Part shown: one piece after another, positions 26,597 to 64,000 of the stretch
Numbering within the stretch: the stretch's first letter is position 1
Layout of the letters: each line of letters opens with the position of its first letter
DNA from: Cafeteria roenbergensis
Taxonomy: Eukaryota > Sar > Bigyra > Bicosoecida > Cafeteriaceae
DNA length: 64,000 nucleotides
Reading direction: 5' to 3'
Assembly: GCA_008330645.1 (NCBI GenBank)
Contig: VLTN01000044.1
Span: 62,001-126,000, forward strand
Notes under the pieces: generated by a model
What the model saw: only the letters and a program-made list of their open reading frames with translations
Databases searched by the model: none
Told to the model about the DNA's origin: nothing
Position numbers and translations under genes: made by a program

Positions 26597-29500
26597 ATGA
26601 ACGCGAGAGCTCCGGCCCTTGCCACGCAAGCAAGGCCCGCGTGGCGCTCATCACCGCAGCGTTGTCGGCAAGCAACAGGCATCCCTTTGGCAGTGGTGGC
26701 TTGCGCCGCCGTGGCACAGGCATTGGGTGCGCTTGAACCCTCATGGAGGACGACAGCAGCGATGCAGCATTTCAGGGAGCTCTCTTCTCAAACTCGACAT
26801 CTCGCAGTCGATGACTCATTGCTAACCTTTGACTGCACCGGCATAGCTGGAATCAATGGTCCCCCTACCGAGCCAGGCACTGGGCTTGAGGAGTGGGGAC
26901 AGTTCGGGTACTCCCTCGCAGCCATGAGTGGTGGCCTGCTGGTCGGGGCGCCCAACTCGAGCGCCGGCAAAGGTCAAGTTCACTACTTCCCGTTTAGCAG
27001 AATCACGCAGGCTGACGGTGCGTACCAGACGTACACCATCCTTCCCTTTATGAGCTCCAAACTCGATGGAGTCCTAGAGCAGGGCAGGCTTGGAGAGCTG
27101 CTTGCAACTGACTCAAGTGGCGTGACTGCGGTGGCGGCTCAGGTGAACGGGAGCCACACCCAGTTAATTGCGTGGAAAGCACCGGCTCCGTTTCAAGACC
27201 TTGACCTCCAGGCGGGGGTGCTGACAAGGCCAGACTTTGCTCCAGGGCGCCCAACTGCTTTGGCTATGGACGACTCGATTGTTGCTTTAGTCACGTTTTC
27301 TGGGGTCTCGTGGGGTCTGTACCTGACTCCTGTCTCGGCCATTTTCGCGGAACACAGTGAGCGCTTGCCCGACGCGGCTCGAAACGCAAGTTTCTACCAA
27401 TGGTTTCCCACGCCCAGCGTGTCGGCTAGCCCTTCTTCGTCGATGACTTCGTCTGCATCGCCGAGCGCGACAGCGACTGCGTCTCCGAGCGCGACAGCGA
27501 CGGCGTCTCCGAGCGCGACAGCGACTGCGTCACCGAGCTCGACAGCGACTGCGTCTCCGAGCTCGACACCACTTGGAAATCTCGAAGACCCAGCACAAGT
27601 CATTGGGCGGGCACTGCAAGACCTGGACGTGCCCTCGACAGGCTCCACAAGCGGGGCGACTGAGGGCAATGTCACGCGTTTCTCTGCGCACTTCGGCATC
27701 GCCGTTTCAGGCGGTATTGTGGTCGTGGGGATCAGGGCGCTTCGAGGTCAGAATGCCACCGTGGCGCTGGTGCGAGTTGACCGTCAAGCCAGCGTGCTGT
27801 GGACATCAAACCTTGACGTTGATCTCAGCGACGACGGAGCAAGTCTGGCCGCAACTCGCGACGCTCAGACTGGTGATACAACTCTGGCCTTGTTTCTTTC
27901 TCGCGAAAGGTCCGCTCACTTCTTCGAGTGGCCCGAGAACCCTGGAACGGCAGCGGCAGTCAAGGCTGCCGGACGCGTTCTGATGCCTGAGAGTGTGGAC
28001 GTGACGTGCGCGCCCCCATCAGCGCGGGATGGCCTCTTCGTGGTGCCGACGAACTGCGGAGGATCGTCTGGCGGCTCCGTCGCCATCGTTGACCGCGCAA
28101 ACTCCAACTCGCAGTGGCGCTGGCGAGATTGGCCAATTCAGCAGTTCGGCCCTGTGGCGAGCCACCAAAACGGGAAGCTGTTCCTTGCGGATCCCTCCTA
28201 TCGCCGATCCGCGACATCTGAGCCAACGGGTTCAGTGCGGTCTTACTTTTGCCAAACTCGGGCGACCCCCTCGCCTTCTGCAACTGCTAGTATTACGCCC
28301 TCGTCCACCGCTTCGCCGTCCGTGTCCCCGTCCTCTTCGCCAAGCCCTTCAACTTCGCCTTCGGGAACGCCGAGTCCCTCGTTTGTCCCCTCAGCCCCAA
28401 GGGCGGAAGGCAACTTCGAGTTGGTGGTCGCAGAAGTGGGGTTGCCATTCGTCCACTTCGTTGCAGCCCCCTTTTGCGCTGACACGGACACGGGCAAGAA
28501 CATGGAATCAGTGTCCGACCTCCGGGTTTTCGTTGCCAGCGCCGGCGAGTTTCCGAATGGGCTTGCGGTCGGCGGAAACGGTTCAACGCAGGCCGAAACC
28601 CTCAGCGGTCGCGGTGCGCTCGTTTTTGGAACGCCGGAGTCGGTTGCAAACGTCACCTTCAGGGCTAGCTGCGGAGACACGTTCGGGCTGCTGTCCGTGC
28701 GATCCGTGGATTTGACGTACGTGTGCCTTGCGTCCGTGACGCAGGTTCAAGTCTGGCGCTCCAGCGCTCAGCCCTCCAAGGCCATCAGCGAGCCTTTGGA
28801 AGACGCAGCGCTGACAATTTCCATCCACTTTTCGGCACCATTGGTGCGCAGCCTCAACAACGCCAGCCTGCGAGCCAGCGGCTTTCTGCTTGACGGCACG
28901 CCTTGGATGTCAACCGACGGCCAAATTGCGTTTGTCAACGCGTCTGTCGTTGGAAACGCGTCCGAATTGTCGCTCCAGGTTCGGAGCGACCTGGGTGCAG
29001 GCCATCTGTCATCCAGCAAGGCCTTCCAGTGGGAGTTCCGACAGCGCCCAAAGTCTGTGATCCTTTGGAGTGGGCCGGCCGGGGCAGAGACGGAGCAGCA
29101 GCAGGGCGGCACCATTACCAGCAGTGACAGCCTGTTTGCCCGGTTGTCGTTCGCGACGCCAAAGGGTCCAAGCCAAGTCTCGGCATTCCAGCTCGACATT
29201 TCCGGCCTGGTGGTGTCCGGATCACCGGCTTCACTGAACGATGACGACACGGAATGGCTGGTTCCTCTTGCGATTCCGGACGGCAGCCGCGGCCTTCTTT
29301 CTGTCAACTCGCTCAACTCCGGGCCCCTTGGCACGAGCCCCGGGCTACTCCCCGCGGCCGAAGCAGCGATGGGGGCATTTCGAGCTGAGGTTCTGAGCAT
29401 TCAGCTCGTTAAACCAGGCTCTTGCACCGAGCTTGACAAGTTCACGCCCGATGGCGCCACCTCGACGCAAGTTGTGTCGAACCAGATGGACTTATTAGTC

Positions 29501-32500
29501 GACTTCGGGGCTGCGGTTAGCAACTTTTCCGAACAGGCCCTGAACCTGACAAACCTGAAAACCCGCGGGGAGGCAGAAATTGTCCAGGCCTCGGCAACAA
29601 ATCAAGCTGCAGGGAAGCGGTGGCGGGTTCCACTGGAGGTGAATGCAACAGGTGGAGACGCAATCTCGATCGCAGTGAGCGTGCGCGTCGGGCCCGATAG
29701 CGCCACGCTGCCTCAGCTAACCGGCAACGCCTCCCTCCTGCTGGGCTTTGGGCTCGTTCGTCCGTCAGACATTGCTGTGATGGCGGGAGCCACGCCCTCT
29801 GCCCTGACGCCTAGAATAGTCGGTGATGCTGATGCCAGCATGAACCTGTGGGTAGTCGTGTCGTTTCCCCTGGCCGTCAATACGATGAGGCTACAGCACT
29901 TTGTGCTTCAAGGCCTCAAGGAAGCGCCAGGCGCGAAGCCCGTCGCACTTCAGGACGCGCCCAGCCTGGAGACTCTGTCCTCGAGCCTGGATTCTGGGGC
30001 GAAGCATTGGGCCTTGCGCGTCACTCCCATCGACTTGGCAGATTCAGCCAGCGCCAACACTCGGCTCTCTGACGAGTGCGAGCTGGGCAACACCGGCTGT
30101 GTGAACCAGGCGCCGTCGATTTCCTCACATGCAACAGGTGTGACCCTCGGCCTGCGGTCCGTCGCCACAGCGCTTCAGGTTGTGGAGTGGGATGCCGAGC
30201 TGCAGACACCCAAGAACACGATGGCGCTCAACTCCTCCGCCAGTTCCGCTTCTTGCTTTGCGGTGATTGCAACCTTCATGACGGGACTGAGGTCCTTAGA
30301 TGTCGCCGACTTTCGTCTGGCGGGCCTTAGTGCAAGCATCAGCACCGACGACTGCGGCTCGGCGAATCTTGGCCAGCAGCTGCCGAACAGCACTGATGCC
30401 AACGGCAGAGTGTGGCGCCTGCTTGTGGTTCCTCTTGAATCTGGGAAGGCGAGCGTCAGCTTAAAAGACGGCCTGGGGACCAGCTCCCCGAGCTACACCC
30501 TCGGGCCATCCGTGCACGACCGGCACTTTGAGCTCAGGGTGCAAGTCAAATCTCTGGACTGGCTCACCTGTGCTGCGAACCCCTGCCAAGCGCTCACCAG
30601 CTCGGCAACAACGGACCGCAGCCTCGCTCTGCGGGTGACCTTCAACCGGCCAGTCGCCCACTTCGTTGCCGCGCGAGACCTGGCGCTCGCAGGGCTCGCC
30701 GTCAGCGGCGAAAGCAGCGACCCCGGCCCGCGCGCGGTGTGGGTGGTGCACCTCGTCCCCACCGCTGAGCGGAGCGACGTGTCCGCCACTGTGTTGCCTT
30801 TCCGATCAGGACTGTGCAACGCTAGCGAAGCCGGAAGCTCCTGGAGCTGGGCAAGCGGTCCAGCTACCTCTTGCTCCCTCGCGACGCCGCGCATCGCCGC
30901 CACAGGGCCGATGGCAGCCGCAGTCCAAGTGCAGGCCAAGCCCACGGCGTTGGGCTTCTACAAGCAGCCCGTGCTTGATCCAGGCTCCAAGATTGCACCT
31001 GATACGGCAGCGTCGGACCTGTGGGTCGTGGCCGACCTGTCCCTGCCGGTCTGTGGGCTGCCAGCAAGGGCGTTCGTCCTGTCGAACGCGACTGCGACTC
31101 TGTCGGACCCGGTTGCAGTGCGCATGGATGAGACGGCGCTGAGTGGCGGCTGCTCGAGTCGATGGGCCATGCATGTCCAAGTTCACGACCGTGCAGGGAG
31201 CATCCGCGCGGAGGTGCGGCACATGGCAAGTTGCGACAGTCTCGATGGGCAAGCCGACGACGATGGCTGCTTTGCAGCGCCTCCCTCGCCACTGCTGGAG
31301 GCCGGCTCCTCGGCGAACGCGTCGATCAGTCTACGGACCCGAGTCACGTCGGTCTCAGTGTTCGAGGGGAGTCTGGCAAAGGCAGGGGAGCGGACGCTGG
31401 CAGAGCAAGTCCGTTCTGGAGGCTCGTCGTCCGAGACTTGCTTCACCGTGGTCGTGGAGTTCGAGCGAGGCGTTTCGGGCCTGGAGGCCGGTGATGTGGA
31501 CCTTGTTGGCTTGGAGGCGACGGAATGCTCGACGCAGACCGCCAGCCAGCCACAGAGCGATGCCACGGGGCAGCGTTGGTTGCTTCATGTGAGCGTCGGA
31601 GCTGAGATCACGTCCCACGAGATGGGTGCAGGAATTCGGCCGTCGAGCGGTCGGGCCGAGCCGGAAATTGACACAGCCAGCGCGCAACGAGTCGGCTTTA
31701 GCTTCCTTGCCACAGTGAAGACAGTCCAGTGGCTTACCTGTGCTGCGAACCCCTGCCAAGCGCTCACCAGCTCGGCAACAACGGACCGCAGCCTCGCTCT
31801 GCGGGTGACCTTCAACCGGCCAGTCGCCCACTTCGTTGCCGCGCGAGACCTGGCGCTCGCAGGGCTCGCCGTCAGCGGCGAAAGCAGCGACCCCGGCCCG
31901 CGCGCGGTGTGGGTGGTGCACCTCGTCCCCACCGCTGAGCGGAGCGACGTGTCCGCCACTGTGTTGCCTTTCCGATCAGGACTGTGCAACGCTAGCGAAG
32001 CCGGAAGCTCCTGGAGCTGGGCAAGCGGTCCAGCTACCTCTTGCTCCCTCGCGACGCCGCGCATCGCCGCCACAGGGCCGATGGCAGCCGCAGTCCAAGT
32101 GCAGGCCAAGCCCACGGCGTTGGGCTTCTACAAGCAGCCCGTGCTTGATCCAGGCTCCAAGATTGCACCTGATACGGCAGCGTCGGACCTGTGGGTCGTG
32201 GCCGACCTGTCCCTGCCGGTCTGTGGGCTGCCAGCAAGGGCGTTCGTCCTGTCGAACGCGACTGCGACTCTGTCGGACCCGGTTGCAGTGCGCATGGATG
32301 AGACGGCGCTGAGCGGCGGCTGCTCGAGTCGATGGGCCATGCATGTCCAAGTTCACGACCGTGCAGGGAGCATCCGCGCGGAGGTGCGGCACATGGCAAG
32401 TTGCGACAGTCTCGATGGGCAAGCCGACGACGATGGCTGCTTTGCAGCGCCTCCCTCGCCACTGCTGGAGGCCGGCTCCTCGGCGAACGCGTCGATCAGT

Positions 32501-35500
32501 CTACGGACCCGAGTCACGTCGGTCTCAGTGTTCGAGGGGAGTCTGGCAAAGGCAGGGGAGCGGACGCTGGCAGAGCAAGTCCGTTCTGGAGGCTCGTCGT
32601 CCGAGACTTGCTTCACCGTGGTCGTGGAGTTCGAGCGAGGCGTTTCGGGCCTGGAGGCCGGTGATGTGGACCTTGTTGGCTTGGAGGCGACGGAATGCTC
32701 GACGCAGACCGCCAGCCAGCCACAGAGCGATGCCACGGGGCAGCGTTGGTTGCTTCATGTGAGCGTCGGAGCTGAGATCACGTCCCACGAGATGGGTGCA
32801 GGAATTCGGCCGTCGAGCGGTCGGACCGATCCAAGCATTGATGTCTCTCAAGCGCCCTCGGCAACGTTTGAGTTTCGCTCAAGGGTGGCATCCGTGGAGG
32901 TGGCGCAGCTGACGGCCAGCGAGGGAGCTGGCGAGCCACCTTTCCCCGCAACGTCGACCCTTCGAGTGAGGTTCTTATACGAGCGACCTGTACGCGACTT
33001 TGATGCAAGTCGTGATGCTTGGCTTGTGGGCGGGAGGTTCGTGGCCGGGAGCCAGGCTGCTATCGAACCCAGCGGCTGGGAGTTTCACGTCACCCCGACC
33101 GGCTCAACAGCCGAGGTACTGGTTGTTGCCCTGCACTGGCAGAACAGGTCGTGCGACTGGACAAGCGGGGCGAGCCGAAGCGCTATGTCATGCTCGGTGA
33201 CGGTGCCAAGAGTGGCCGCCGATGGCAAAGCCGTGCGCGTGGCGCACGCGCCAGTCAGCGTTGAGCCGGAGGATGCCAAGCTCCTACCGTACCCGGCAAT
33301 CGCCAAGTCGATTTCGCTCGACGGAACGTCGGTTACTGTCAACAACTTTTGGGTTCTCATCACTTTTGAGCAGCCGGTTGCAAACGTCCCGCTGTCTGCG
33401 TTCGGATTCGTTGGTCTGGAGCCCTTTTCGTCCCTTGACAGGAATGACTTGTCGATCGAATACCTGTCGACACCAGCCGCAGTGCAAGCGAACGCCAGCG
33501 AACTGCTTGGCTGGGATTGTCAGGGATGCTCTCGGTTCTGGTCACTGTTTGTCAAGGCAAGCGGCGGAACGAACTCGCTTTCCTTCTTCGCAGCCGAGGC
33601 GAGTACGTGTCCGAATGAGGACGACCAATGCGTCCTTCCCCGGCCTTTGGTGGAATCAAGCGGTGCCATCAAGTCAGGGGACGTGCAGTTCCGGTCGAGC
33701 GTCGTAAAGCTGGAATTTGTTGAAGTTCTGAATCGTGGGCAGTCCTTCGCAGTCGTGTCTGATGGCGGGTTCGTGACGAGCCAGTGCCTATCCGCTCGCG
33801 TGACCTTCGCCGAGGGCGTGCGGAACCTGACTGCAAGCCACTTCCGGCTGCAGACCGTTGAGGCGCGTGACTGTGACAAGGGCAACGCTGCGTCGGTTCC
33901 GGCCCCCGTCGCTGGTGACGAGACGGTATGGCAACTGCCTGTAACGCTGGCCCTGGGTGACCTGGACAAGGAATTTAGCTTCGTCATGGACGCGGAAGCC
34001 CAACCGCCCTCAGTTCCAAACTTTGTGGCGACGTCCATGCGAACTTCCGCCACGTTTCGGGCAAGAGTGAACACCGTGAGGCTGCTGGATTCCCGGACAG
34101 GTGCTGATTTGTCGGGCGGTCTGATAACTTCAGACTCGGTTGAAATCGTGACAGAGCTGTCCTCCCCGGTAGCAAGGTTTCAGACCAAGCTCGACATGTG
34201 GGTTATCGGAGGCACGGTGGTGTGGGAGGAATTCAGCGCTGAAAACGCAGACCAGGCTAGGAACACTTGGCGGGCAAACGCTACCATTGATCCTGGCGCG
34301 AGCGTGTTCTACGTGGAAACGAAGCCAAGCCAGGCATACCTCTGTGAGGCGTCGCACAACGTCCGCCAGGGACTCGGGCAATGCAGTATCACCGGACCTG
34401 CCCTTGGAGAAGCTTTCTTTTCATCTTGGGGCGTTCGGGCAGACGTTGCCACGTATCCGATTCGCTGGCGCATGTTTGATGCTGAGACGAGTCCGATGGA
34501 GCTTCTTGCGCCTGGTACCCCCGCAAGAACGTCGCTCATTGCTGTTGAGGTCAGGTTCGCGCGCCCAGTCCGCTTCCTGCCGGCGTGGGCATTCAATCTC
34601 ACGTGCATGTCTCCAATTCCGGGCATGCCACCGGTGGCCGCCCTGGGATGCACAGATACCTGGATCGTGCACGCAATACCAGATAGTGGCTGCAGCAGTG
34701 TTGTGGCAAGCATACGCAATGCCAGCAGCTGCGCTGACGCAGGTGTGACAGCTCTGTGCCCCAGCGACCTTCCCGCCCCTCGAATTGTGGCCCTCGGAGC
34801 CCCTGCCTCGGCGCCGCACCGGGTCATGGCAACGCAAATGACGGTGGCAGTCTGGGAAGACGACAATGGCGATGGGAGGCCAGGCGACGGAGAGCAGCGC
34901 GTCGCGAACGGTGGGGTCACCTCCGCACGGTGCCTCTCCGTCCGCGTCGCGTTCGGCTCCGGCATCCGGGGACTCACTGCGAAGCACTTCGATCTGCGAG
35001 GACTGCTGCCGCAGCGCTGCCGGCCGCACGCCAGCTCGGCAGCAGCCGAGCCGAGCGAGGCCGTGCAGCTCGATGCGTTCGGCGCCGAGTGGGCCCTTGG
35101 CGTCGTCGTGGCGCCCGAAGCGGCGCGGGTGACTGCTGGCCTGTTCGAGCCTGGCACGGCTGACTCTCCCATGACGTCTCCTTCGTACCGGGTCACCAGC
35201 TCGGCATTGGCACTTGAGTACCGGGTCCGACTCCTTGGCATGTCGCTGTGGGAAGTGGCGGGCGCCGTGGGCGCCCAAACACCTGCTGGACGAGAGGTTA
35301 CAGCCGGATCCACATCGGCGACCCGGCTCAAGCTCCGGGTGCAGTTCGAGGGACCCGTCCGGGGCCTCTCGGCTGGAAGGGACATATCGCTGGATGGTCT
35401 GCGGGTCGTGGAGGAGAGCCCCGACTCCGGGCCCGACGGCCAGCACTTTGCGGACGTGTGGAACATCACGGTGGAGCCGACTGGCGAGCGCTCAGACGTC

Positions 35501-38500
35501 ACAGCGACGTTGGTCCCGTTCGAAGAGCATGTGTGCGTCGGGGGGGAGGGCCCCGCGAGCGTGGCGTGGTCGGGCGGCGACGCGCCCAGCTCGTGCAGCG
35601 CAGCCGTTCCGCGCCTCGCGGGCTACGGCCCGTCCGGGCACGTTGTGGGAACGACGTTCTTTGCAGTGCCAGTCGGGGTGACCTTTCGGTCGGAGCCATC
35701 AACGGACTCATCCTTTGTGCTGGAGACGGTTACAGTGCTGTCTTCAGTGTGGGCGGTGGTGGAGTATTCGGTGCCAGTCTCCAACCTCCCTCGTTCGGGT
35801 CTTCGACTCGGGAACGATACAAGCGCCTTACTAACCCAACCAGTTGGCTTGCAGTCTCTAGCGTCGAGTGCGCATGGCACACGTTCGTGGGGAATTCCTT
35901 TGCAGATAGAAAATGATGGTGATGCGTTCGCAGTCTTTGCCACCGAACTCTCTCGGTGTCCCAGGGTCAACAACACCTCGGTGCTGTGCCAACACCATCC
36001 GCCTCGACCTCTGATTTGGTTGCAATCTTATGATACCAACCTTGACATGAGCCGGCTTTTCACCAGGCCCCCGTGGATTGGTATTGCAGTGCTTGAAGAC
36101 GACAATGGCGATGGGAGGCCAGGCGACGGAGAGCAGCGCGTCGCGAACGGTGGGGTCACCTCCGCACGGTGCCTCTCCGTCCGCGTCGCGTTCGGCTCCG
36201 GCATCCGGGGACTCACTGCGAAGCACTTCGACCTGCGAGGACTGCTGCCGCAGCGCTGCCGGCCGCACGCCAGCACAGCAGCAGCCGAGCCGAGCGAGGC
36301 CGTGCAGCTCGATGCGTTCGGCGCCGAGTGGGCCCTTGGCGTCGTCGTGGCGCCCGAAGCGGCGCGGGTGACTGCTGGCCTGTTCGAGCCTGGCACGGCT
36401 GACTCTCCCATGACGTCTCCTTCGTACCGGGTCACCAGCTCGGCATTGGCACTTGAGTACCGGGTCCGACTCCTTGGCATGTCGCTGTGGGAAGTGGCGG
36501 GCGCCGTGGGCGCCCAAACACCTGCTGGACGAGAGGTTACAGCCGGATCCACATCGGCGACCCGGCTCAAGCTCCGGGTGCAGTTCGAGGGACCCGTCCG
36601 GGGCCTCTCGGCTGGAAGGGACATATCGCTGGATGGTCTGCGGGTCGTGGAGGAGAGCCCCGACTCCGGGCCCGACGGCCAGCACTTTGCGGACGTGTGG
36701 AACATCACGGTGGAGCCGACTGGCGAGCGCTCAGACGTCACAGCGACGTTGGTCCCGTTCGAAGAGCATGTGTGCGTCGGGGGGGAGGGCCCCGCGAGCG
36801 TGGCGTGGTCGGGCGGCGACGCGCCCAGCTCGTGCAGCGCAGCCGTTCCGCGCCTCGCGGGCTACGGCCCGTCCGGGCACGTTGTGGGAACGACGTTCTT
36901 TGCAGTGCCAGTCGGGGTGACCTTTCGGTCGGAGCCATCAACGGACTCATCCTTTGTGCTGGAGACGGTTACAGTGCTGTCTTCAGTGTGGGCAGTGGTG
37001 GAGTACTCCGTACCCGTGTCCGCCGTGCCGAGAGAGGCATTGCGTGGCCGGTACAACTCGTTGTCCAGAGCCAAAACAGCAGTGAGCCTGCGGCCATCAG
37101 CCGCTGTTTCCAGTACGCAGGCGTCTACTCTTTGGGCCTTCGCAGTTGAAGCTGCTGCAGGAGCGTCAAATCTGTCTTTGTCCCAAGCCCAGGTTGACGT
37201 GTCGAGCGACCAAGTGCAAGGCGTCTCTTGGCCGGGCTTGAGGGCGAGCCCAAGTCAGCCTGATACCTTCGTGCAGCTTGTTCGCAGCGAAGCCTCGGAC
37301 ATTGCCATCGTGGAGGACACCAATGGCGATGGGAGGCCAGGCGACGGAGAGCAGCGCGTCGCGAACGGTGGGGTCACCTCCGCACGGTGCCTCTCCGTCC
37401 GCGTCGCGTTCGGCTCCGGCATCCGGGGACTCACTGCGAAGCACTTCGACCTGCGAGGACTGCTGCCGCAGCGCTGCCGGCCGCACGCCAGCACAGCAGC
37501 AGCCGAGCCGAGCGAGGCCGTGCAGCTCGATGCGTTCGGCGCCGAGTGGGCCCTTGGCGTCGTCGTGGCGCCCGAAGCGGCGCGGGTGACTGCTGGCCTG
37601 TTCGAGCCTGGCACGGCTGGCACTCCCATGACGTCTCCTTCGTACCGGGTCACCAGCTCGGCATTGGCACTTGAGTACCGGGTCCGACTCCTTGGCATGT
37701 CGCTGTGGGAAGTGGCGGGCGCCGTGGGCGCCCAAACACCTGCTGGACGAGAGGTTACAGCCGGATCCACATCGGCGACCCGGCTCAAGCTCCGGGTGCA
37801 GTTCGAGGGACCCGTCCGGGGCCTCTCGGCTGGAAGGGACATATCGCTGGATGGTCTGCGGGTCGTGGAGGAGAGCCCCGACTCCGGGCCCGACGGCCAG
37901 CACTTTGCGGACGTGTGGAACATCACGGTGGAGCCGACTGGCGAGCGCTCAGACGTCACAGCGACGTTGGTCCCGTTCGAAGAGCATGTGTGCGTCGGGG
38001 GGGAGGGCCCCGCGAGCGTGGCGTGGTCGGGCGGCGACGCGCCCAGCTCGTGCAGCGCAGCCGTTCCGCGCCTCGCGGGCTACGGCCCGTCCGGGCACGT
38101 TGTGGGAACGACGTTCTTTGCAGTGCCAGTCGGGGTGACCTTTCGGGTGGATGCTTCGCTCACGTCCCCATTGCTGACAAAGGAAACCTCTTTGCTCTCC
38201 ATGTGGGCGGTGGTGGAGTATTCGGTGCCAGTCTCCAACTTACCAGCAGAAGTCTTTGCAGTTGGGGGAGCGACAACAACCGCCTTGACAGCGCCCGTTG
38301 GCATCGTTCAAGCTCAAGCTGGCCTGGGCGGGGCATCGAAGCTCTGGGCGATGCAGATCACCGCTCTGGGACAAGCGGGAAGCCTCTCTGCGCGCCCCAA
38401 GGCTGTCGAAGGGTGCGCAGCCCTGGCCAACCCGACACGGTGTCCGACTAGTCTCCCTCGACCGCTCACGGCCGTAAATCCGCAGCTGCCAGCCCTCCAG

Positions 38501-43924: not shown

Positions 43925-44121
43925 CTCGCCAGCTCGGCAAGCTAGCGTCCGTGCCTACGAGAGTCCCTCTTGTGTCGTCCCGCCCCTGATTGCGTCTGCG
44001 TATTGTGCCGCGACGAGTGGTGACCCGCTTCGACTCATTTCGCGCGCGCAAGGATCCCACCATCTTGTTCCCTCCACGCAAGCCAAACACCAAGACGCAA
44101 CTTTCGCTGAAGCGTCCTGAA
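43925..44121. other. Very short convergent spacer
   Basis: Only 197 bp separate the stop codons of the giant receptor and the MORN gene. The 3' untranslated regions probably overlap. No other feature was seen. Confidence 0.45.
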
Positions 44122-52340: not shown

Positions 52341-52917
52341 CGTTGCGCGGCCACCGCAGCCAGAAGGCGACCTCCCGCTGCCTTCCCCCTGCCGCTACGC
52401 TGCTGAGGCCCAGTGGGGGCGCCGCGCCGAGCAGGTGGCACGCAAGTCTCGTGCGCGGCAGAGCCGTTTTCAGCGAGTGTCCAAAGCAGCAGTCCTTTTG
52501 TGGCCACACAACGCGCAGCAGCAATGCCCCAAGCAGCCACGCGTCGCGTTGCTGCGATCGCTCGGGCTCGGGCTTTCTCCGTCACGCGTTTCTCTCGCCC
52601 GGGTGCTGCCGGCCCTTGCGCCTGCCTGATTTTGGCGCAGCTCTGCCCGGGTTCGATTGGCCAGCGCGGCAGTGTGCCATCGAGGACGAAATCGAAACCG
52701 CACCCAGGCGAGCCACCCGCAGCTTGCAAGCTTGGCCGCCCCGCTGGGAAGGCAGGTCCGTGCTAGCAGCCCAGTCGCTGCCTCGGTGCTGGGAGGGCTC
52801 GGGAGCGGCACGCGGGCAGGTGCTGGGCCTCCGGGCCACAGCCCACAGGCGAGTCGACTGGCAAGCGCACAGGAGTGGCGTGCACACGCGCAACAGCGCA
52901 GGGCTCGGCGGAAATCC
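52341..52917. other. Divergent promoter region between the MORN gene and the second giant receptor
   Basis: There are 577 bp between the two start codons. The plus frame is open leftwards to a GTG at 52657, but ATG 52918 fits a signal peptide best. No distinct regulatory motif was recognised. Confidence 0.4.
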
Positions 52918-55900
52918 ATGTCACTCTACTGCACAGCCCCCCGGGCGCGGGGAGAGGGGCTCTCTGCGGCTTGCGCCCGGCCCCGCAGCGAGGCACACCT
53001 CCTTGCACTGGTGGGACTGCTCGCGCTTTCCTGCGCAGCGCAGCCCGTGCTACAAGCAGCTGGGATGAAGCCTCCGACGAGGCTGGGGCTAGAATCAATG
53101 GCAGGCGGGCGTGCGGGCCATAAGTCGGGCGGCGGGGGCGCCGCGGCCGCAAGCCGGCTGGAGCCTTCCGCCCCCCACGCTGCGTCGCGAGCTGGAAATC
53201 TAAGCCAGCGCGGCGATGTCCGAGAGGCTGCGATGAGCAGGCTTCATGGTGAGCGCATGCTGGCTCCTACGACTGGAAACACGTACACCTGCTCCTCGTC
53301 GAACATCCGAGCCGCTCCGCCCGAGGCCGGCATCACGACCCTCTCCTCCTCCGGAGAAGGGGCTCGTCTCGGCACTGCCGTTGTGGCCTCCCTGCATGGC
53401 GTGTTTGTGACAGTGCCGGGTGCCACTGTCAACAGCAATCCCCGCGCTGGGAAGGGGGTGCTGTTCAGGTACCTCTCTGAGAACAGTGCGAACCGGTTCG
53501 CACTGAGCGCCTTCTCCACTTACACGACAACAATGCTGTCAGATGTGCCTACGGCAGAAAGCCAATTTGGTGAACGTGCCTCAGGCTCGGCCGACGGGCT
53601 GAATATTCTCGCCTTTGAGCCTGGCACCGCCGCCAAGCCCAGCCAAGTCCACTTTTTCAAGGCCAGCACTGCAATGTTCGACTACACGGCGACGCGGTTC
53701 GCTGCAGAGGCCGGAACAAGTTTCGTTGGGCCGGTTTCAGTTGACTCGTCCATCGCCGTCGCACTCTCAGAGAAAGCTGGCGTTGAGCGGCTCGTTGTGT
53801 TCAAAACCTCGGCAGATGGCGAGTGGCTGCGGTCTCCTCAAGTTGTCCAACCTTTCGACCTCGATCAAGGGAAAGTCTCTTCAGTTGCCGTGCTGGGCAC
53901 GCTCATCGCCGCCGGCATGGCTGACGCTGGCTCTGGGAGCGGCGCTGTGCTGATCCTTCGGCAAGTCGCCGGCGAATGGCACAAAGTGGCACTTGTGTCC
54001 GGAGGATTCGAGACTGGCGCCGCTGGGCTCGGCAACATTGTGGCGCTCGGCAGCCTTGCATTTTCCAGTCATGCCCTCCTCGTTGCGTCGCAAACGAGCC
54101 TGGCTCCAGGCCCCACAACGCAGCGGGCGGCACACCTTCGAGGCTACTTGATCTCGACCTCTTCATTCAACCCGCTCGAGCGGCATCCCGATTTCGGAGC
54201 GGCGAGTGCATCCCAGCCAGTTCACGTGTGTGGGATAGCGATTGCCGAGGGCCAGGTTCTGGTGACCACCTCTCAGACGAACACGGAGGCGTGTGGGACC
54301 GGTCAAGTGATTGACGTGGGAAGCGACGGCTCGTGGTCGCTGCAGGAGAGCGTGGCCGTTGAATCCACTTCGAGCCACATATTCGAGGGCCGGCTGGTTT
54401 TTGGACAACCAGCCAGCAACGTCAGCTTTTCGGGCGAAGTTGTGTCCGAGCATGGAAAGGCAGTCGCGTTCTACTGCGCACCGGCGCCTTCGACCACCCC
54501 AACTGCTGCACCCACGCCGCTGACAACTCCGTCAACTTCACCCAGCTCCAGGCCAACATACGTCCCGCCTTCCCAGAGCCCCACTGCAACCGCAACCCCA
54601 TCATCGGCTGCGATAGCCCCGCTTCTGGTCCATGGGCCGTTGCTGCTGCGGGCGACCATCGGCGAGCCGTTCATTTGGTTTCCGAACTCAACTCTGTGCA
54701 CCGATGCCGACCCGACCGAGAACTGGCAAAACAGTACCGTTTTGGCACACATGGAGGTCCTGGAGCGCCGAGACGCCGGCATCAATGCTGTCAACAGCGG
54801 CCGCCCTATGGCGGCGACGATTCGCGGGGAGGGTGCTTCGCTGGCGGGGATTCCCCGCGCGTTGGGAACGGTGTCAGCGCGAGCATGGTGCTCAGACCGC
54901 GCAGGCCTGCTATCGCAAGCCGCGCTGGTAAATGTCAGCATCCGTGCGAAGCCCGCCCGAGTGGCATTCGTTCGAAGCTTCGGCCCCGACGGTTCCGTAA
55001 GACTCTTTCAGGACGACGAGGGTTTCGGTGGTGCGGATGTTTCGTCGGTCTTGGCATTTCCAGTCAACGTGACTTTGGAGGCGAAGAACTTTGAGACAGC
55101 AGGGCTGTCGATTCTGTCCGTCTCGCGTGGTCAGGTGCTCGGATGGCCGAATGCTTGGATTGTTCGATGCAGACCAAGGGGCGACACCGAGCGCTTGGCA
55201 ATCAACATCGCCCCGGGGGATGCGGACGTGGCGCCTGCAGCACAGCCGGCAACGATTCTGTTCCGCACCAAGGTTGAGTCTGTTTCGCTCGTCGCTCTCG
55301 GAGCCAATGGAACATACGAAACGCTCGCTTCGTCAGCAACTAGGACGCCCGTCGCGCCCTCTGGCCGCCTCTTCGCAAGAGCCCAGTTCTTTGACGCGCT
55401 TTTGCATGGTCCCAGCACTGTGCGTCCTGAGGCTTTCGTTCTCACGGGCTTGTCGTGGACGCTGGCAGATCCGATTCGCGAGGACGAAGGCAAAACCTGG
55501 CTGCTGCCAGTCGGCGTTTCCGACGGGCCACACCCTGGGAGCATAGGCATCCGGCTTGAGGCACCGACTTTTTTGACGGCCCCACCGGTCAACTCTAGCA
55601 CGGACAGAGTGAACGCGCCCTATAATGCAGCGGCCACCGAATTGAAGCTGGTTTCGGCTGGAACATGCGACACCTTGCCCACGTTCCAACTGAATGGATC
55701 GTCGCTAATCGGGGCCGCTCAGTTCGACGCACTGCTCGAGTTCCAGAGTCCGGTGGCTGGGATGTCTGAGAAGGACTTTGAGCTCGTTGGCGTTCGGCTG
55801 CGTACAGGCACAGCCGTTTCAATCGAGACGGCATCCTCCAACCCGCAATACGGCTTTGCCTGGCGAGCTCGCCTTGAATTGAGCACCTACCCGACGCAGG

Positions 55901-58900
55901 AGCAGCCAACGACAGCTGTGACAGTGAGGCTCTTGGAAAACGCAAATGGTTCGGTCGCCGCACCTGTCATTGGCACAAGGAGGTCCATTACTGTTGTCTA
56001 TGGCACGGCAGAGGCAACTGAGGCGTGGGTGCAGACGACTATTGGCGAGACAAACGCCGCAAGGCACACTGACGCAGTGCCTACACCGTCGGACGGACTG
56101 GTCTTCGCGGTGTGCAAGTTCTCTGTGGCAATTACTGGGCTGCATCGGTCAAACTTCCTCCTTGGCAGTGAAGTTGCAATTCCCAGCGACGCCATGCCGG
56201 TGGCAATCTGGCCAGACGGTACGTTTCCAGACAGGAGCTCTGGGTCTCAGGTTTGGGCTGTACCGCTCGTTGTCGACGACGATGCAAGCTTGATCGAATT
56301 CGGCACTCAATTGGCCGAGCCTTGTGACCCAAGCGCCGCCGCAGCCGGTTCATGCTCTCAAGTCAACCCACCTGTCGGAAAGTCGGCAGGCTTCAATTTC
56401 CGTGCCGCTTCTCGTGCCATTCTAGTTGAAGTGTTGGAGCTGGACCCCAACGACGACTCAGGCCCCGGCTCAACACAGCTCCTGATTGCGTCGTCAGCAT
56501 TCGCTTCTCCGGGATTGGCGTCTCGGGCTTGCTTCACAATTCGCGTCACTTTTGAAGCACCCGTGAGCTCTTTGCAAGCGGATGCGTTTGAGCTGGGCGG
56601 GCTTCGCAGACAAAAGTGTGGACCAGAGAGCGGCGAGTCTCTTCCAGGGAAGGAAGTGCACAGCTCAGGAAGGGTGTGGCTGTTACAGGCGGCCGCCGAC
56701 AGCTTGTCAGAGACGAGCAGACGCTCCGTACGAATCCGGCGTTCGGAAAGCTCTAGCAAGCTGGTGCTTGAGAGCGATGTCATTGCCGCATTTGATACTC
56801 TAGCCAGAGTTGTCAGGCTGGACCTCAGCGAGGTCGCGGGTGCAGCTGGGTCGAGACTATCCCCTCTAGACAGGGAACTCTCGGCCTCGGGCTCGCCCCC
56901 CGTCACCGCTGCGACGAGGCTCAACCTGACCATCCATTTCGAGCTCCCGGTGGCCAACTTGAGTGCGGCCCGGGATCTGCACCTGGAAGGCGTCGCCGCT
57001 CTCGGGCCTGCTCGTCCAGTGGGCGACGTCATGCGCGAAGCGAGGTCGGCGACCTGGGAGCTCATCCTGGTCCCCACTGGACTTGCGGCGTCGGCGGCCT
57101 TCGCCCAGGCAAGCGACGCGCAGTTCAGCGCGCTCGGCAGGGTGACGGTTCTCCCGTACTCGCCAGAGCCGTGTGAAAGCCCGCTCGCAAGCACCGCGTC
57201 GGCGACTTGGAGCCTTGGGGACGGATTGACATCCTGTTCTGCCGCATCCCCAGCCATCGCAAGCGAGCCAGTCGCGCCTGGCTCGCGGGTCGTCGAGTTT
57301 GTCCCAGTCGCGGTGCCGATGGATGCCTGGCTTGCCAGCTCCCTTTCGTCGACCCCGTCTGCCAGACTACCGACCAACGCGTCGACGCGCCTGACAAGCT
57401 TGGTCATGGTTCTGCGCTTCTCAATGCCGGTGAATGACGTTCCACGCTCTGCATTCAGGATCGTCGCCGGGCTGGCAACGGAAGCAGGCGCGCAGCCCAT
57501 TGCCCTCCGCGACACTGGCTTGCTCAGCCCGGACGCGCAAGAGAGCTTCGGCGACGGCGACGCAGGACGTAGTGGGTCCACGACCTGGGGGCTCACTGCA
57601 GGCGCTCTCCATGGCGCGGCATCGCTATCATTTACAACAGCAGCGGTGGAGTCGTGTCCCGACGAGTCGCCATCTTGCTCGGGGGCGCTGCGGCTGCCAA
57701 CTCCCCGAATCGGACTGCTTGCAGACCCAAGACCAGCCTCCGCTTGCGGTGGCGCGGGCGCAGTCGGTCCCGCTTCTCGTGGAGGTGTTCCAAGACGATG
57801 ATGCGGACGGGGCCGTCGGAGCCGCAGAGCCATTGGTCGCGACCAGCGACGCTGGCACTAGTGCAAGCGGAGTATCGCTCTCGGCGTGCATGGTGGTTCG
57901 TGTGACGCTGTCGTTGGGTGTGACTGGGCTGGGCCCTTGGGCCCTCGGACTGCTGGGACTGGAGTCCGCGGCATGCCAGGGGTCGGGGGCACAGTCTGCG
58001 CCTGGCCCGGCCCGGCCTGCTGACGCCGATGGGACGGTGTGGGAGTTCGGGGTGCGGTACACCGAGGTGGGAGCTCCCGACGCTCTGCGCGCCTGGGTGC
58101 AAGGCAGCACGGCCTCGAGACCCGAGCTTTGGGGGAATACGAGCACAGTTGCTGCCCTCGAGATTCGGACTAGGGTCGTCAGGCTGGACCTCAGCGAGGT
58201 CGCGGGTGCAGCTGGGTCGAGACTATCCCCTCTAGACAGGGATCTCTCGGCCTCGGGCTCGCCCCCCGTCACCGCTGCGACGAGGCTCAACCTGACCATC
58301 CATTTCGAGCTCCCGGTGGCCAACTTGAGTGCGGCCCGGGATCTGCACCTGGAAGGCGTCGTCGCTCTTGGGCCTGCTCGTCCAGTGGGCGACGTCATGC
58401 GCGAAGCGAGGTCGGCGACCTGGGAGCTCATCCTGGTCCCCACTGGACTTGCGGCGTCGGCGGCCTTCGCCCAGGCAAGCGACGCGCAGTTCAGCGCGCT
58501 CGGCAGGGTGACGGTTCTCCCGTACTCGCCAGAGCCGTGTGAAAGCCCGCTCGCAAGCACCGCGTCGGCGACTTGGAGCCTTGGGGACGGATTGACATCC
58601 TGTTCTGCCGCATCCCCAGCCATCGCAAGCGAGCCAGTCGCGCCTGGCTCGCGGGTCGTCGAGTTTGTCCCAGTCGCGGTGCCGATGGATGCCTGGCTTG
58701 CCAGCTCCCTTTCGTCGACCCCGTCTGCCAGACTACCGACCAACGCGTCGACGCGCCTGACAAGCTTGGTCATGGTTCTGCGCTTCTCAATGCCGGTGAA
58801 GGACGTTCCACGCTCTGCATTCAGGATCGTCGCCGGGCTGGCAACGGAAGCAGGCGCGCAGCCCATTGCCCTCCGCGACACTGGCTTGCTCAGCCCGGAC

Positions 58901-61900
58901 GCGCAAGAGAGCTTCGGCGACGGCGACGCAGGACGTAGTGGGTCCACGACCTGGGGGCTCACTGCAGGCGCTCTCCATGGCGCGGCATCGCTATCATTTA
59001 CAACAGCAGCGGTGGAGTCGTGTCCCGACGAGTCGCCATCTTGCTCGGGGGCGCTGCGGCTGCCAACTCCCCGAATCGGACTGCTTGCAGACCAAGACCA
59101 GCCTCCGCTCGCGGTGGCGCGGGCGCAGTCGGTCCCGCTTCTCGTGGAGGTGTTCCAAGACGATGATGCGGACGGGGCCGTCGGAGCCGCAGAGCCATTG
59201 GTCGCGACCAGCGACGCTGGCACTAGTGCAAGCGGAGTATCGCTCTCGGCGTGCATGGTGGTTCGTGTGACGCTGTCGTTGGGTGTGACTGGGCTGGGCC
59301 CTTGGGCCCTCGGACTGCTGGGACTGGAGTCCGCGGCATGCCAGGGGTCGGGGGCACAGTCTGCGCCTGGCCCGGCCCGGCCTGCTGACGCCGATGGGAC
59401 GGTGTGGGAGTTCGGGGTGCGGTACACCGAGGTGGGAGCTCCCGACGCTCTGCGCGCCTGGGTGCAAGGCAGCACGGCCTCGAGACCCGAGCTTTGGGGG
59501 AATACGAGCACAGTTGCTGCCCTCGAGATTCGGTCGCGGGTCATAAGCCTCAGCGTGGTTGAGAACGGGGCCAGCGCAGGGTCAAGAAGGCCGCCTCTTC
59601 GGCTTTTAAGCCCGGAGGACTGGACAGCGGCATCCGAGTTGGAGGCCAAGTTGAGCTTTGAGATTCCCGTCGCCAACGTGACCTCAGAGCGGGACCTTCA
59701 TCTCGTCGGTCTTTGGGCTGGTTTTGCTCGGCCTACGTTGCCTTTGCCTTCGGCCGTCTGGGTTGTCCCGCTTTTCCCCACCGGTGCAAGTGACATCGCT
59801 TCCGTTGCAGTGCTCTCGCGCAGCTCGATGGCGTGCGACGATGACGCGCCCGACTCGGAGGTCGCAACGGCAACAGTGCCTGGTTCCGGGCTCCTCGAGT
59901 GCTCAACTTGCTCCCCGTCCATTGCCGACGCAGCAACGTGGGGTGCGATGGAGGTTCAATTTCGAGTCAAGACCACTGTGGTGAATCTCTATCTGCAGCG
60001 AGAGGCGACTCTTGATCCCCAATACGCCATCGCAAACGACACTCAGACTGACAGTTCTACGTTCTACGCAGGGTTGCAGCTCTCCGTGGCAGCAACGCAC
60101 GTCCCTGTCTCTGCATTTCGCTTTTTGAAGAGTCTGCAGCCTCGCCCCTTGGCGATGCCCTTCGGGCTGAGGTCAGCCGAGACGGACAAGATCGCCAGAG
60201 GCGCCGCAACCCGCTGGATGGTGGCTGTGGAAGTCGGCTCGGCGTCCGAGTTGCTGCAGTTCCAGGCCGCTGAGGTGCAGCGGTGTTTGGGCCCTGGGTG
60301 CTCCGAACAAGTTGCCGTGATGCCGGACGTTGCGTTGCTGCCTGGGTCTCCCGCCCCCACGTACACCGCGCGGTTTGGAACGTCGGTACAGAGCATTCAG
60401 GTTTGGGCAGACCTGGATCAAGATTTTGAGCTGTCTGACGATGATGTTGTGGTCACCTCAGGAGCAACGACTTCGTCCCGTTGCCTCCTTGCTGTCGTCA
60501 CGTTCGCCAGCCCTGTCGGCGATGTCGAAGCCGGCCACTTCTTCTTCCAGGAGGCCGTGGGCCGTCGTTGCAACGGGGGCGCAGCGACCGCCACGAGGGT
60601 CAACGACCAGAGTGACTCGCAATGGCAGCTGCCATTCGTGCCGGAAGATGGCACTGATGGCGAGGGCATTTCCGTCACAGTCAAGTCAACGTTCAGCGGC
60701 GGCGGCGACACGACGCCAACCTTCACAGAGCCTGCGCCCGTCTCCTTCTCGTTTGCCACGACGGTGGATGCGACGCAGCTGTTTGAGCATCCCGGCTCGA
60801 CGCCTTCAACCCGTTCTCCAGGCCTAGCGCTCTCGCTGGCCGACTCTTCGTCGGCGAGCCTTTTGCTGCTTCGAGTGACATTCGCGCTGCCTGTCCAGCT
60901 CTTTTCTCCGCTCCGTGACCTCTTCGTTCAAGGAGCCCGGCTCGCGGACGACAATGCATGGGTGGACTCGGCGACGTTCTCACGCGTCTGGAACGTCACG
61001 CTTCAGCCTGTTGGCAACCTGTCCGACGTTTCAGTCGTCGTGCTGCCGTACAGAGCGCACACGTGCATTCCTGGACGACCGGAACAGCCAGTGTCGTGGG
61101 CGTTCATGTCAACCGCTCGGTGCTCGTTGGCAAGACCCACAATAGCTGCCGACGCAGCGTCGCAGAGAATTGCCCGAGTCACAGTCGGGCCCGCCTTGGT
61201 CGGCCTCCAGTTTCGGGCAGGACAGCGACAAGCGCCCCTCGTTGAGTTCGCTGTCCAGAGGGAGGTGCTCGCTGTGCTTGCTCTGTCCCTGCCTGCATCC
61301 GGGATCCACGGCGACATGCTCCAAGTCTCCGGCGACGGGCAAATGCTCGGGTCACCATTTCCGCTATTTAACGACTCCGATGTTGCCCACGGAGGCTGCA
61401 GCGCCTGGTGGGCAACAAGGATCCGGGTCGGACCGAGCGGAACACCTGTCACTGTGACTGCGGCTGCCACTCAGTGCAACTCTTCTGCGCCAACCCAGTG
61501 CGTAGTTCCCGCCCTAGTTCAGGGGACTCATCCATTGCCCTCCGCTTCGATTCGCTTCAAGGCAGCAGCGGAGGCAGTCATGCTGCTTCAGGACTCCGAC
61601 GGCGACGGCTTCCCAACAGCAAGTGACGTGGACGTGACGTGGAGGGGGTCGGGCGGCCCAGTTGCCTTTTCGCGCTGCGTGGTTGCTGTTGTGAACTACA
61701 CCCACGCAGTCGCCAATGTTTCCCTTTCCGATTGGGACCTCTTCGGTTTGCTGCCGCAACAATGCGCCAGCGGGGAGCCGACGTCTCCTGAGAGCCAAGG
61801 CGGCGGCCAGACGTGGTCCCTGGGGCTCGTGATCAATGAGACGTTTGCGGCCTGGGGTGGAACTCCCAGTCTGCGCGTGCGCGGCTCTGGCACAACGTTG

Positions 61901-64000
61901 CCGGCCACCGTCGGCGCAGAGCAACCTGCTAGCTGCGTCTTCGAAACCAGCGTTGCGACCGTCTCTGCTTGGGAAACAAGTGGCAGCGTCGGGTCATTGC
62001 CTGCCCTCCACGAGGCCGTGGCAACCACCAGCGGTAGCCCCGCCACGCTCCAGACAGCAGCATCCAATCTCCTTGTTGTCGTCCAGTTCGAGGCTCTCGT
62101 GGCTGGCTTCTCTGTCGACAGGGATGTTCACTTGTCCGGGCTTCGTGCGCAGAGCGTAGCCACGCCTGCTGGCGGCGCGGGATGGGGAAATGCTTCTCGT
62201 GAGTGGCGCTTCACGGTGTCGCCCACTGGCTCGGACGGAGTCGCGAGCATCCTGGTCTTGCCCTTCTCTGCGGCAGGCTGCGCAGACGGCACAGGCTTCA
62301 GCCCGGAGCCTGCCGAGTCTGCCCTGCCACACGCCGGCCTTGGATCCTGCTCTGGGGCACAGCCGCGCATTCATGGCAGCACCCGCTCGGCTCGCTCGAT
62401 CAGCTTCACAATCATTGCGGTGCCGCTCTCCATCCGGTTCCAAACTGCTCCGGAGGCACTGCCCTCTGCCACAGCACTTGCCAACGAAACCGTTGTCGGC
62501 GAGGGGCGCTTTTGGGTCGTGATTGATTTTTCCACGCCAGTTCGCAACGTTCCCAACTCCGCCTTTGCTCTGGGAGCCGGAGTGTTCGCCGTGCCTGGAA
62601 CTCTACCGGTGTCTGTGTCCCGGCTGCCGTCGGCAGCACCCCAGTCGGCATGGGACGCAAGCAAGTCTGACGGCAGAGAGATCCTAGGCCCGTCTCCAAC
62701 GTGGGCGATTCCAGTGGACATCCACGGGTTTGAGTCCATCCTGGTAGTCAAGTCCGCGACTATCAAGTCAGTTGCCGACCTTGATGCGAGGCGCGAGAAT
62801 AGCTCAAGACCCCTGGACTCTCTGCTGCCGATTCCACTCGTGGAAGCAAACTCGTCCGTAGTTGGCTTCGAGAATCCGGCTGCTGCGCTCAAGAGGGCCC
62901 TGACGACGCCCAAACTACAGCTACGGATCGACATGGACGGCAGCAGCTCCTTCACCCAGCCAGACGTGGAGCTTTCAGAGCTTGATCCGTGGACGTCCAG
63001 CCGGTGTTTGGTCGGCCTCGTTAATTTCACGCGGCCGACTCTGCTCACATCGAAATCGGTTGATTCGCTTGAACTGGAAGGGCTTGCGGCAATGCAATGT
63101 GGCAACGAGAACGCCGCGTCGGAGTTCCAGCCCGCGGCCCAGCCCGGACCTCCAGTTGAGGCTGGCCAGCCATCGCTCCTCTGGTCGATTGCCCTCGTGA
63201 TTCCAGACGACGGCGTGGCTCGGGGCAAAGTGTCGTTCGGCCTTGGCTCGGATGCGTCCGCTATTCCGCCCTTCTTGGCAGCCACTGCCGTGACCACCAG
63301 CGTGCAAACGAGAGTCGTGGAGATGGAGCTCCGCGAGGTGCCAGGCAGCGAGGGATCAGTGCACAAGGCTTCGGCGGTGCTGGTGGCGTCGACGAATGCG
63401 ACCCTAGCAACAGCAGCTGCGCCTCCAGCTCTGCCAGCAAACCGGTCGCTACCGTTTTACGAAGACCTTGAGAGGTTGTCCTTCGCTGTGCATGACGGAG
63501 TCAACTACTCCTGGCCTCCACAGCAGCTTCAAGGAGCCACTTCCGCATCCGAGCTGTTCTTGCGGGTGAAATTCAACTCGCTCGTCAGCAACGTGGCAGC
63601 AGGAAGGGACCTTGTGTTGAAGGGACTCGTGGCGCTTGAAGACGGCAGGGTCGTCGACACCGCGGGCAACGGTCGGTTTCGAGCGAATACTTGGGAATTC
63701 CGTCTCGGCGTAACGGGCACAGCTCGGACAGTGCGCGCATCCGTTGTCCCTTTCAATAGCTTCAGTTGCATCGAGGCAGGCCGCGACAAGCAGAGCACCA
63801 GCGTGCCCTGGTCCCGAGTGGGGGATGGCCTTACCAGCTGCTCAGCCGCTGCTCCTCGGATCGCGTCGGACTCGGAGGTGTTCACGATCGAGGCCAACGT
63901 TTCTGCCATCGCTACCAAGGCCGAGTGGCGAATTTCCTTTGATGGGTTGCCTTCGTCCGTCCTCGCCCCTTCGGCCTTCGTCTCCGAAACCCGGCTGATT
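52918..64000 (+). CDS. Second giant surface receptor, paralogue of 26597-43924, incomplete at the right edge and with one frame break
   Basis: ATG 52918 gives a basic n-region and HLLALVGLLALSCAAQ, a good signal peptide. Propeller-like strands, a Ser/Thr/Pro stalk (54480-54610) and Ig-like super-units follow, in the same order as in the upstream giant. The frame is open to about 57729. There an extra C (GCAGACCC against GCAGACC in the tandem copy at 59085-59100) shifts it, and the original frame then stops at 57801. The protein resumes in the next frame and stays open to base 64000, adding about 2090 residues with normal domain patterns. So at least 3690 residues are encoded if the extra C is an error. 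Acidic loops such as DSDGDGFPTASDVD precede cysteine-bracketed segments. The cysteine array and membrane region are not reached and presumably lie to the right. A sequencing error or a genuine disruption are both possible. Confidence 0.8.
54480..54610 (+). other. Ser/Thr/Pro stalk of the second giant receptor
   Basis: The segment encodes a Pro/Thr/Ser/Ala linker (PSTTPTAAPTPLTTPSTSPS and onward) between the propeller-like region and the Ig-like super-units. It corresponds to the stalks of the paralogue but without its regular minisatellite. Confidence 0.75.
56812..58168 (+). repeat. Intragenic duplicated unit C, copy 1
   Basis: About 1357 bp are repeated directly 1366 bp further on with only scattered differences (for example GGGAAC against GGGATC, and AATGAC against AAGGAC). 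This copy carries the extra C near 57729. Without it the period would be 1365 bp, exactly 455 codons. Confidence 0.9.
58178..59533 (+). repeat. Intragenic duplicated unit C, copy 2
   Basis: This is the intact-frame copy of unit C, ending at the AALEIR codons before sequence unique to the next super-unit. It shows what the frame of copy 1 should be. Confidence 0.9.

Follow-up and report, generated by a model that had tools for sequence, protein, structure and literature searches.

The question raised by a 64,000-nucleotide stretch of contig 44 from Cafeteria roenbergensis (positions 62001-126000, GC content 68.5%; hereafter the window) is whether two very long genes in it encode rods built to a regular plan, and what such rods might do. 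Cafeteria is a marine, bacteria-eating flagellate that lives as a free single cell. An initial annotation of the window read positions 26597-64000 as two giant surface proteins repeating a super-unit of three immunoglobulin (Ig)-like segments, types 1, 2 and 3, in fixed order. Both giants, Giant 1 (G1) and Giant 2 (G2), are real, but a separate minus-strand open reading frame (44122-49263) lies between them, and the triad rods fill just part of each (approximately 29015-39733 in G1 and 55249 to beyond 64000 in G2). They are most likely tandem paralogous multi-pass surface proteins of this bicosoecid flagellate. The ordered triad is real, and at least four giant genes share it as a family trait.

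Three profiles were built from domain cores located by motif and aligned per type (12 type 1, 12 type 2 and 16 type 3, all from G1 and G2), and matches of at least 40 bits were kept as typed domains, weaker ones being dropped. In a profile search of the giant frames, G1 reads 3(123)x8, i.e. 25 typed domains, and G2 reads 3123 in its first frame and (123)x7 in its second. Upstream of the first type 3 domain in both proteins are two weak Ig-like matches (4.9-20.2 bits), which, added to the typed domains, bring each rod to approximately 27 Ig-like domains in strict 1-2-3 order.

Since the type labels were first set from motifs in G1 and G2, only the genes on contigs 35 and 2 provide an independent test. 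These two held-out paralogues were found with G1 triad 8 in a genome of 36,303,456 bases and 167 contigs. The contig 35 paralogue (frames of 1394 and 5122 amino acids) reads 3123123 and 12313123131, and the contig 2 paralogue (a 10,496-amino-acid frame) reads 3312312312312312312. Across the four genes, 87 domains were kept (29 type 1, 26 type 2 and 32 type 3). There are 81 steps in all, and every one of the 72 adjacent steps obeys the 1-2-3-1 order, which thus holds beyond the two proteins for which it was proposed. The other nine cross gaps (three of 1-2, three of 2-3, two of 1-3 and one of 3-3); both 1-3 gaps, in the contig 35 paralogue, contain weak type 2 matches, and the 3-3 gap, in the contig 2 paralogue, contains weak type 1 and type 2 matches. 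As a control, 611 out-of-family frames and their reversals peak at 17.1 bits with any profile. Successive type 1 domains lie 378-426 residues apart in G1 and 395-493 apart in G2, so that the repeat is real but its range is wider than the 390-455 residues first given; in the two paralogues the distance is 425-751 and 423-1040, with insertions or dropped domains in some units. Triads from G1, G2, contig 35 and contig 2, used as four queries, led to loci on contigs 44, 35 and 2 only; the count of four genes is a lower bound, since these searches scored only the best candidates.

The motifs by which the types were first told apart differ in how specific they are. A loose C...C bracket occurs in 29/29 type 1 domains, as had been proposed for that type, but also in 8/26 of type 2 and 13/32 of type 3. 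The Arg-Asp motif described as invariant in type 2 is indeed confined to it: the strict pattern RD[ALVI]x[LVFA]xG, a form of RD-x-x-x-G, is present in 22 of 26 type 2 domains, and so not in all, and in none of the 29 type 1 or 32 type 3 domains. The later type 2 cysteines also stand, as a Cys...Cys-Ser/Thr...Pro pattern found in 23/26 type 2, 1/29 type 1 and 4/32 type 3 domains. Of the marks assigned to type 3, a PV-like pattern is present in all 32 domains but is unspecific (22/29 type 1, 26/26 type 2), and the aromatic strand is a feature of the majority only.

Distinct cysteine and motif patterns in each type could be taken to mean that three unrelated beta-sandwich families were fused in a fixed order, the strong form of a heterotypic rod. 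Profile-profile comparison with hhalign makes this highly improbable and largely refutes it. All three pairs are homologous over 100-109 columns, with E values of 4.9e-10 (types 1 and 2), 5.1e-07 (types 1 and 3) and 4.1e-07 (types 2 and 3). For the same pairs, scores of 66.0, 47.4 and 47.1 fall to 11.7, 10.2 and 11.9 with reversed alignments, and the best of 60 column shuffles per pair reaches 18.9, 11.9 and 14.7. Three unrelated folds are rejected on this mutual homology and the negative controls, and the three separate folds of the initial annotation are not supported; judged by their profiles, types 1, 2 and 3 are diverged copies of one domain. The annotation had also named, as an outcome against its reading, a collapse of the profiles into one known family without an ordered triad. 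They do merge into one family, yet it is an unnamed one, and the triad order persists.

A tree of these domains (rows more than 85% alike dropped, which reduces 87 domains to 64) groups them by type across genes, with two label changes, the minimum for three labels. One branch sets type 2 apart (support 98/93) and another, weakly supported (92/48), sets type 3 apart; type 1 forms a grade around type 2. In this tree 34 of 61 inner branches are unresolved, and its bootstrap had not settled. As the grouping is by type rather than by gene, the triad is inferred to predate the gene family. The leading type 3 domain of G1 clusters with those of contig 35 and contig 2 (98/88), which fits rods that preserve their ends while growing internally; that of G2, on a long branch, falls outside this cluster.

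The triad is also the unit of recent duplication in the rods. In G1, positions 31730-32829 (triad 2 into triad 3) are 99.7% identical to 30560-31659, and in G2, positions 58172-59533 (triad 2 into triad 3) are 99.4% identical to 56806-58168. The DNA copies lie one triad apart, at 1170 bp (99.7% over 1100), 1239 bp (98.7% over 937), 1218 bp (99.8% over 826) and approximately 1365 bp (99.4% over 1363). The rods of G1 and G2 have a similar number of domains despite seemingly independent recent triad duplications, which could reflect chance or a constraint on length.

In the window G2 consists of two overlapping frames, 52657-57801 and then 57434 onward. The second ends near 72364 on the window scale (contig 44, approximately 134364), with ephrin-receptor-like repeats and a membrane module. 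G2 was treated as two frames and left unmended. It is decidedly improbable that copy number and frame changes stem in part from misassembled near-identical repeats or from a decaying gene. The frame change of G2 does fall within a near-identical repeat, that of the contig 35 paralogue occurs among units 99% identical as protein, and parts of the assembly report (PMC6972860) describe the published assembly as long-read based and approximately 28% repetitive; an assembly error is the likely cause of these two frame changes. However, no frame change interrupts G1 (5775 amino acids) or the contig 2 paralogue, assembly copying cannot produce diverged triads, and the order of types is identical in four genes.

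One feature of the type 1 domains, overlooked in the initial annotation, is an EF-hand-type loop. Of 24 type 1 segments, 14 have the strict motif D-x-[DN]-x-[DN]-G directly after strand A, and none of 21 type 2 or 28 type 3 segments has it; these are the distinct first-56-residue segments among the 29, 26 and 32 domains of the four genes. Over 2000 rounds of shuffling, the motif appeared on average in 0.04 of the 24 type 1 segments and never in more than 2. A looser 12-residue EF-hand loop pattern, devised post hoc, fits 19 of the 24. A whole-length scan, covering G1 and G2 (the paralogues being represented by first-56-residue segments), found eight strict motifs, seven of them in type 1 A-B loops. 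In the modelled triad there is no helix between strands 9-19 and 44-51, which suggests a loop without the helices that flank a true EF-hand. To judge from its residues, the type 1 loop may bind calcium, and Ig topology would place it at the joint between type 1 and type 2.

An AlphaFold2 model of one triad (G1 triad 5; input of 14 aligned units from the window, one of them partial) has a mean predicted local distance difference test (pLDDT) of 76.3 and a predicted template modelling score (pTM) of 0.73, and comprises three all-beta domains in three strand runs. Its top Protein Data Bank (PDB) matches in Foldseek are the adhesin FdeC (4e9l, E 7.4e-07), titin Ig tandems and a Dictyostelium filamin rod. 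There are 11 PDB chains at E <= 0.001, including antibody, T-cell receptor and S-layer chains and a ciliary complex, and 16 entries of a viral structure library at the same level, among them several phage proteins and one herpesvirus glycoprotein. A single-domain model of type 2 (pLDDT 74.6, pTM 0.68) has weak matches, mostly to major histocompatibility complex (MHC) and antigen-binding fragment (Fab) chains (best E 0.083). The models point to an Ig-like all-beta fold class, with no closer family established; the beta-sandwich character predicted initially is supported by the modelled all-beta domains and their Ig-like neighbours.

That no known family would account for the segments is likewise in keeping with a Pfam scan of 12 type 1, 12 type 2 and 16 type 3 domains, which returned scattered, chance-like matches, one member each, and no credible match among the 40 typed domains scanned. 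At E <= 10, none of the 12 type 1 domains has SdrD_B/CnaB among its Pfam matches. Big_12 (PF19078) has no match at E <= 10 among the 40 domains in a scan whose HMMER filters drop most weak matches. Across the genome there are seven Big_12 matches, all below the cut-off and all on contig 25, where one domain scores 26.2 bits against a cut-off of 27 (E 9.7e-06). The type 2 profile matches this domain weakly (17.1 bits, E 1.1e-4, the best of 611 frames); the best reversed frame (E 0.094) likewise comes from contig 25. This link hints at distant kinship with Big_12 rather than membership, so that the Big-type resemblance initially noted has a weak, indirect tie through contig 25 but no direct match. 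Contig 25 was considered as an extra triad gene and rejected, its only match being the weak one to type 2. The array there (443001-453000) has its seven Big_12-like matches at a spacing of 1228-1240 bp, in near-identical units, and is split into exon-like separate frames with intron-like stretches between.

Searches for relatives covered this genome, prokaryotic genomes, viral contigs and plasmids, with phages, metagenomes and other protist genomes left outside. With G1 triad 5, peptide-pattern searches suited to close relatives only gave 37 stretches from bacteria and archaea and one from viral contigs, and at E <= 1e-3 not one of these was confirmed. No plasmid matched G1 triad 8 or the contig 25 domain at E <= 1. 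Among solved structures searched by sequence at E <= 10, there was one match for type 2 (E 1.3), one for type 1 (E 0.4) and none for type 3. No such architecture is described in the titles and abstract openings surveyed, a survey with most subscription papers outside its scope.

Of the parts that flank the rods, residues 28-46 of G1 form a hydrophobic, signal-like segment. C-terminal to the G1 rod are ephrin-receptor-like repeats (PF07699, E 2.6e-37, 126.8 bits, 12 stretches), and single Ephrin_rec_like repeats score above the cut-off in the G2, contig 35 and contig 2 frames. The G1 membrane module has relatives in G2 (E 2.2e-5), contig 35 (2.1e-7), contig 2 (2.5e-11) and contig 69 (2.6e-5), and none among solved structures searched by sequence at E <= 1. 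This rod-bearing membrane module and the cysteine-rich repeats are features that the initial annotation overlooked. FG-GAP (PF01839) is detected only in the contig 2 paralogue (39.3 bits, E 5.8e-10), which also has, at residues ~1750-2200, a long tract of short Cys/Asn-rich repeats upstream of its rod. Ephrin_rec_like multi-pass proteins are, as far as is known, widespread in protists, and their C-terminal half resembles that of G1 and G2. The present genome has 57 PF07699 matches, many on giant open frames, the largest of 16,961 amino acids (contig 8) and 13,593 amino acids (contig 3). They make up a large repertoire of giant proteins, which may be located at the surface. Contig 69 was rejected as a fifth triad gene, with no typed domain in the 10 kb read; at 81001-91000 it has an Ephrin_rec_like frame beside a membrane-module frame, with a different ectodomain that appears beta-helix-like by eye.

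Taken together, a reasonably probable reading is that the tandem paralogous giants form calcium-stiffened extracellular stalks that grow triad by triad, with adhesion as their likeliest use. One ancestral domain would have been triplicated, its copies specialising into types 1, 2 and 3; the gene family would have split later, and the stalk would since have lengthened in triad-sized duplication steps. The type 1 EF-hand-type loop, between strands A and B, is expected at the pole facing type 2, and calcium would therefore probably stiffen one joint per triad. In calcium-rich seawater the stalk would become an extended rod, anchored by the membrane helices and cysteine-rich repeats, that would hold an N-terminal head (an FG-GAP-like propeller) off the cell. 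Rod stiffening and surface exposure are presumed, and a role in adhesion to prey, particles or other cells, suggested by architecture alone, is the most likely one.

Several observations weigh against this reading. Whole-chain TM-scores of the triad model are low, at approximately 0.2, which may occur when flexible rods are superposed whole. The type 2 single-domain model has no PDB match at E <= 0.001, and the fold call therefore leans mainly on the triad model. The strict loop motif is absent from 10 of the 24 distinct type 1 segments, and the remaining motif of the whole-length scan occurs late in a G2 type 3 domain (frame 57434, residue 2275, beyond the window); it is therefore strongly linked to type 1, yet not exclusive to it. 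In addition, FG-GAP is undetected by Pfam in G1 and G2, contig 69 also has the membrane module, away from any typed domain in the 10 kb read, and G2 as assembled is more than one open frame.

Some of the same evidence bears on a pure spacer, in which the triad is a unit of length, the types have drifted and play no distinct roles, and the loop survives as a stabilising remnant. This is possible, if rather unlikely. Branches within each type are long and divergent (median end branch 1.23), as drift would have it, the strict loop is missing from the type 1 segments just mentioned, and there is no evidence of a ligand, none having been sought beyond sequence. However, the strict RD pattern separates 22/26 type 2 domains from 0/61 others across four genes, and such type-specific residues, with the unbroken order, point to a role for type, at the least in how adjacent domains pack.

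The stalk might instead be a calcium-dependent rod for homophilic cell-cell or self-recognition, a cadherin analogue that evolved independently in a stramenopile. Roughly one calcium-type loop per triad, a long rod, a multi-pass anchor and recent change in copy number are all compatible with this, but no cadherin family member appears in the Pfam scans of G1 and the typed domains, and the organism is a free-living single cell, which leaves the idea distinctly doubtful. A further possibility, also doubtful, is an independent, calcium-gated, super-repeated Ig rod with one calcium-set and two fixed joints per triad, serving as a ratcheted adhesion or self-recognition fibre; this would be a cadherin-like principle realised with an unrelated Ig-like domain family and extended one triad at a time.

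The calcium-stiffened adhesive stalk, which remains the preferred reading, has partial parallels in known systems. Passages of PMC6272769 describe SiiE as having 53 tandem Ig-like domains with conserved aspartate calcium sites and a proposed calcium-stiffened stalk, and its calcium-rigidified rod is also treated in parts of PMC7785521. G1 and G2 resemble SiiE and its bacterial Ig-like (BIg) domains in the very long Ig-like rod and the calcium-type sites. SiiE, in contrast, is a substrate of type I secretion that repeats essentially a single kind of domain, whereas G1 and G2 are eukaryotic multi-pass proteins with three ordered types that have no Pfam match. The staphylococcal Sdr B repeats, of CnaB type, have an EF-hand-type loop in each extracellular repeat, according to sections of PMC3775735. 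They share with type 1, at the level of the motif only, such a loop in a beta-sandwich repeat; in G1 and G2 it is typical of one type in three, and there is no profile match. The second strand of the G1 and G2 domains looks Big_12-like by eye, unlike that of Sdr B.

Titin offers a different parallel. Its A-band has ordered super-repeats of 7 or 11 related beta-sandwich domains, as portions of PMC3859903 relate, and titin Ig tandems are among the structural matches of the triad model; however, titin is a muscle protein of Ig and fibronectin type III (FN3) domains, and sequence similarity to G1 and G2 has not been shown. FdeC, of the intimin-type adhesins, is the best structural match to the triad model, at 11% identity and a TM-score of 0.20-0.24, and has no sequence match. 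By principle, SiiE, Sdr and the titin super-repeats appear closest, by analogy rather than as families of which G1 and G2 are established members. Long, Ig-like, calcium-stiffened stalks are thus already known; what is distinctive here is a calcium-type loop tied to one of three types.

To our knowledge, how such cells hold prey and encounter viruses at their surface is poorly understood. At least four giant, apparently surface-located proteins with an unnamed domain, a clear repeat unit and a testable calcium site offer concrete constructs for study, and are a further, non-muscle example of ordered beta-sandwich super-repeats. The features of both giants are collected in the table.

Table. 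Features of the two giant genes, in window coordinates (T1, T2 and T3, domain types 1, 2 and 3).
Feature	Position	Strand	Remarks
Giant 1 (G1)	26597..43924	+	single open frame, 5775 amino acids from the Met chosen in the initial annotation (putative start); stop 43924
G1 N-terminal region	26597..29014	+	FG-GAP-like motifs by eye; two Ser/Pro/Thr-rich linkers
G1 rod	29015..39733	+	2 weak Ig-like domains, then 25 typed domains
G1 triad 1 (T1-T2-T3)	30125..31339	+	
G1 triad 2	31310..32509	+	
G1 triad 3	32480..33685	+	
G1 triad 4	33656..34831	+	
G1 triad 5	34802..36070	+	unit modelled with AlphaFold2
G1 triad 6	36041..37288	+	
G1 triad 7	37259..38515	+	
G1 triad 8	38486..39736	+	query of first genome triad search
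G1 EF-hand-type 12-residue loop, type 1 A-B loop	34859..34894	+	
G1 EF-hand-type loop, type 1 domain	36098..36133	+	
G1 EF-hand-type loop, type 1 domain	37316..37351	+	
G1 EF-hand-type loop, type 1 domain	38549..38584	+	
G1 ephrin-receptor-like Cys-rich repeats (PF07699)	40268..41491	+	borders approximate, by eye
G1 C-terminal multi-pass membrane module	41879..43498	+	8 hydrophobic 19-residue segments (hydropathy)
Giant 2 (G2)	52918..64000, onward beyond window	+	first Met counted by hand
G2 rod, part in window	55249..64000	+	2 weak domains, T3, triads; rod end beyond window
G2 triad 1	56401..57747	+	
G2 triad 2	57758..59152	+	
G2 triad 3	59123..60382	+	
G2 triad 4	60353..61576	+	
G2 triad 5	61547..62905	+	
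G2 triad 6	62876..64000	+	cut by window end
G2 EF-hand-type loop, type 1 domain	57794..57829	+	
G2 EF-hand-type loop, type 1 domain	59159..59194	+	
G2 EF-hand-type loop, type 1 domain	61592..61627	+	

Two other open frames in the window may be mentioned. The minus-strand frame between G1 and G2 is 1713 amino acids long and has a marginal match to MORN repeats. On the plus strand, a frame of 2513 amino acids at 14703-22244 matches starch synthase, glycosyl transferase group 1 and AMPK1_CBM.

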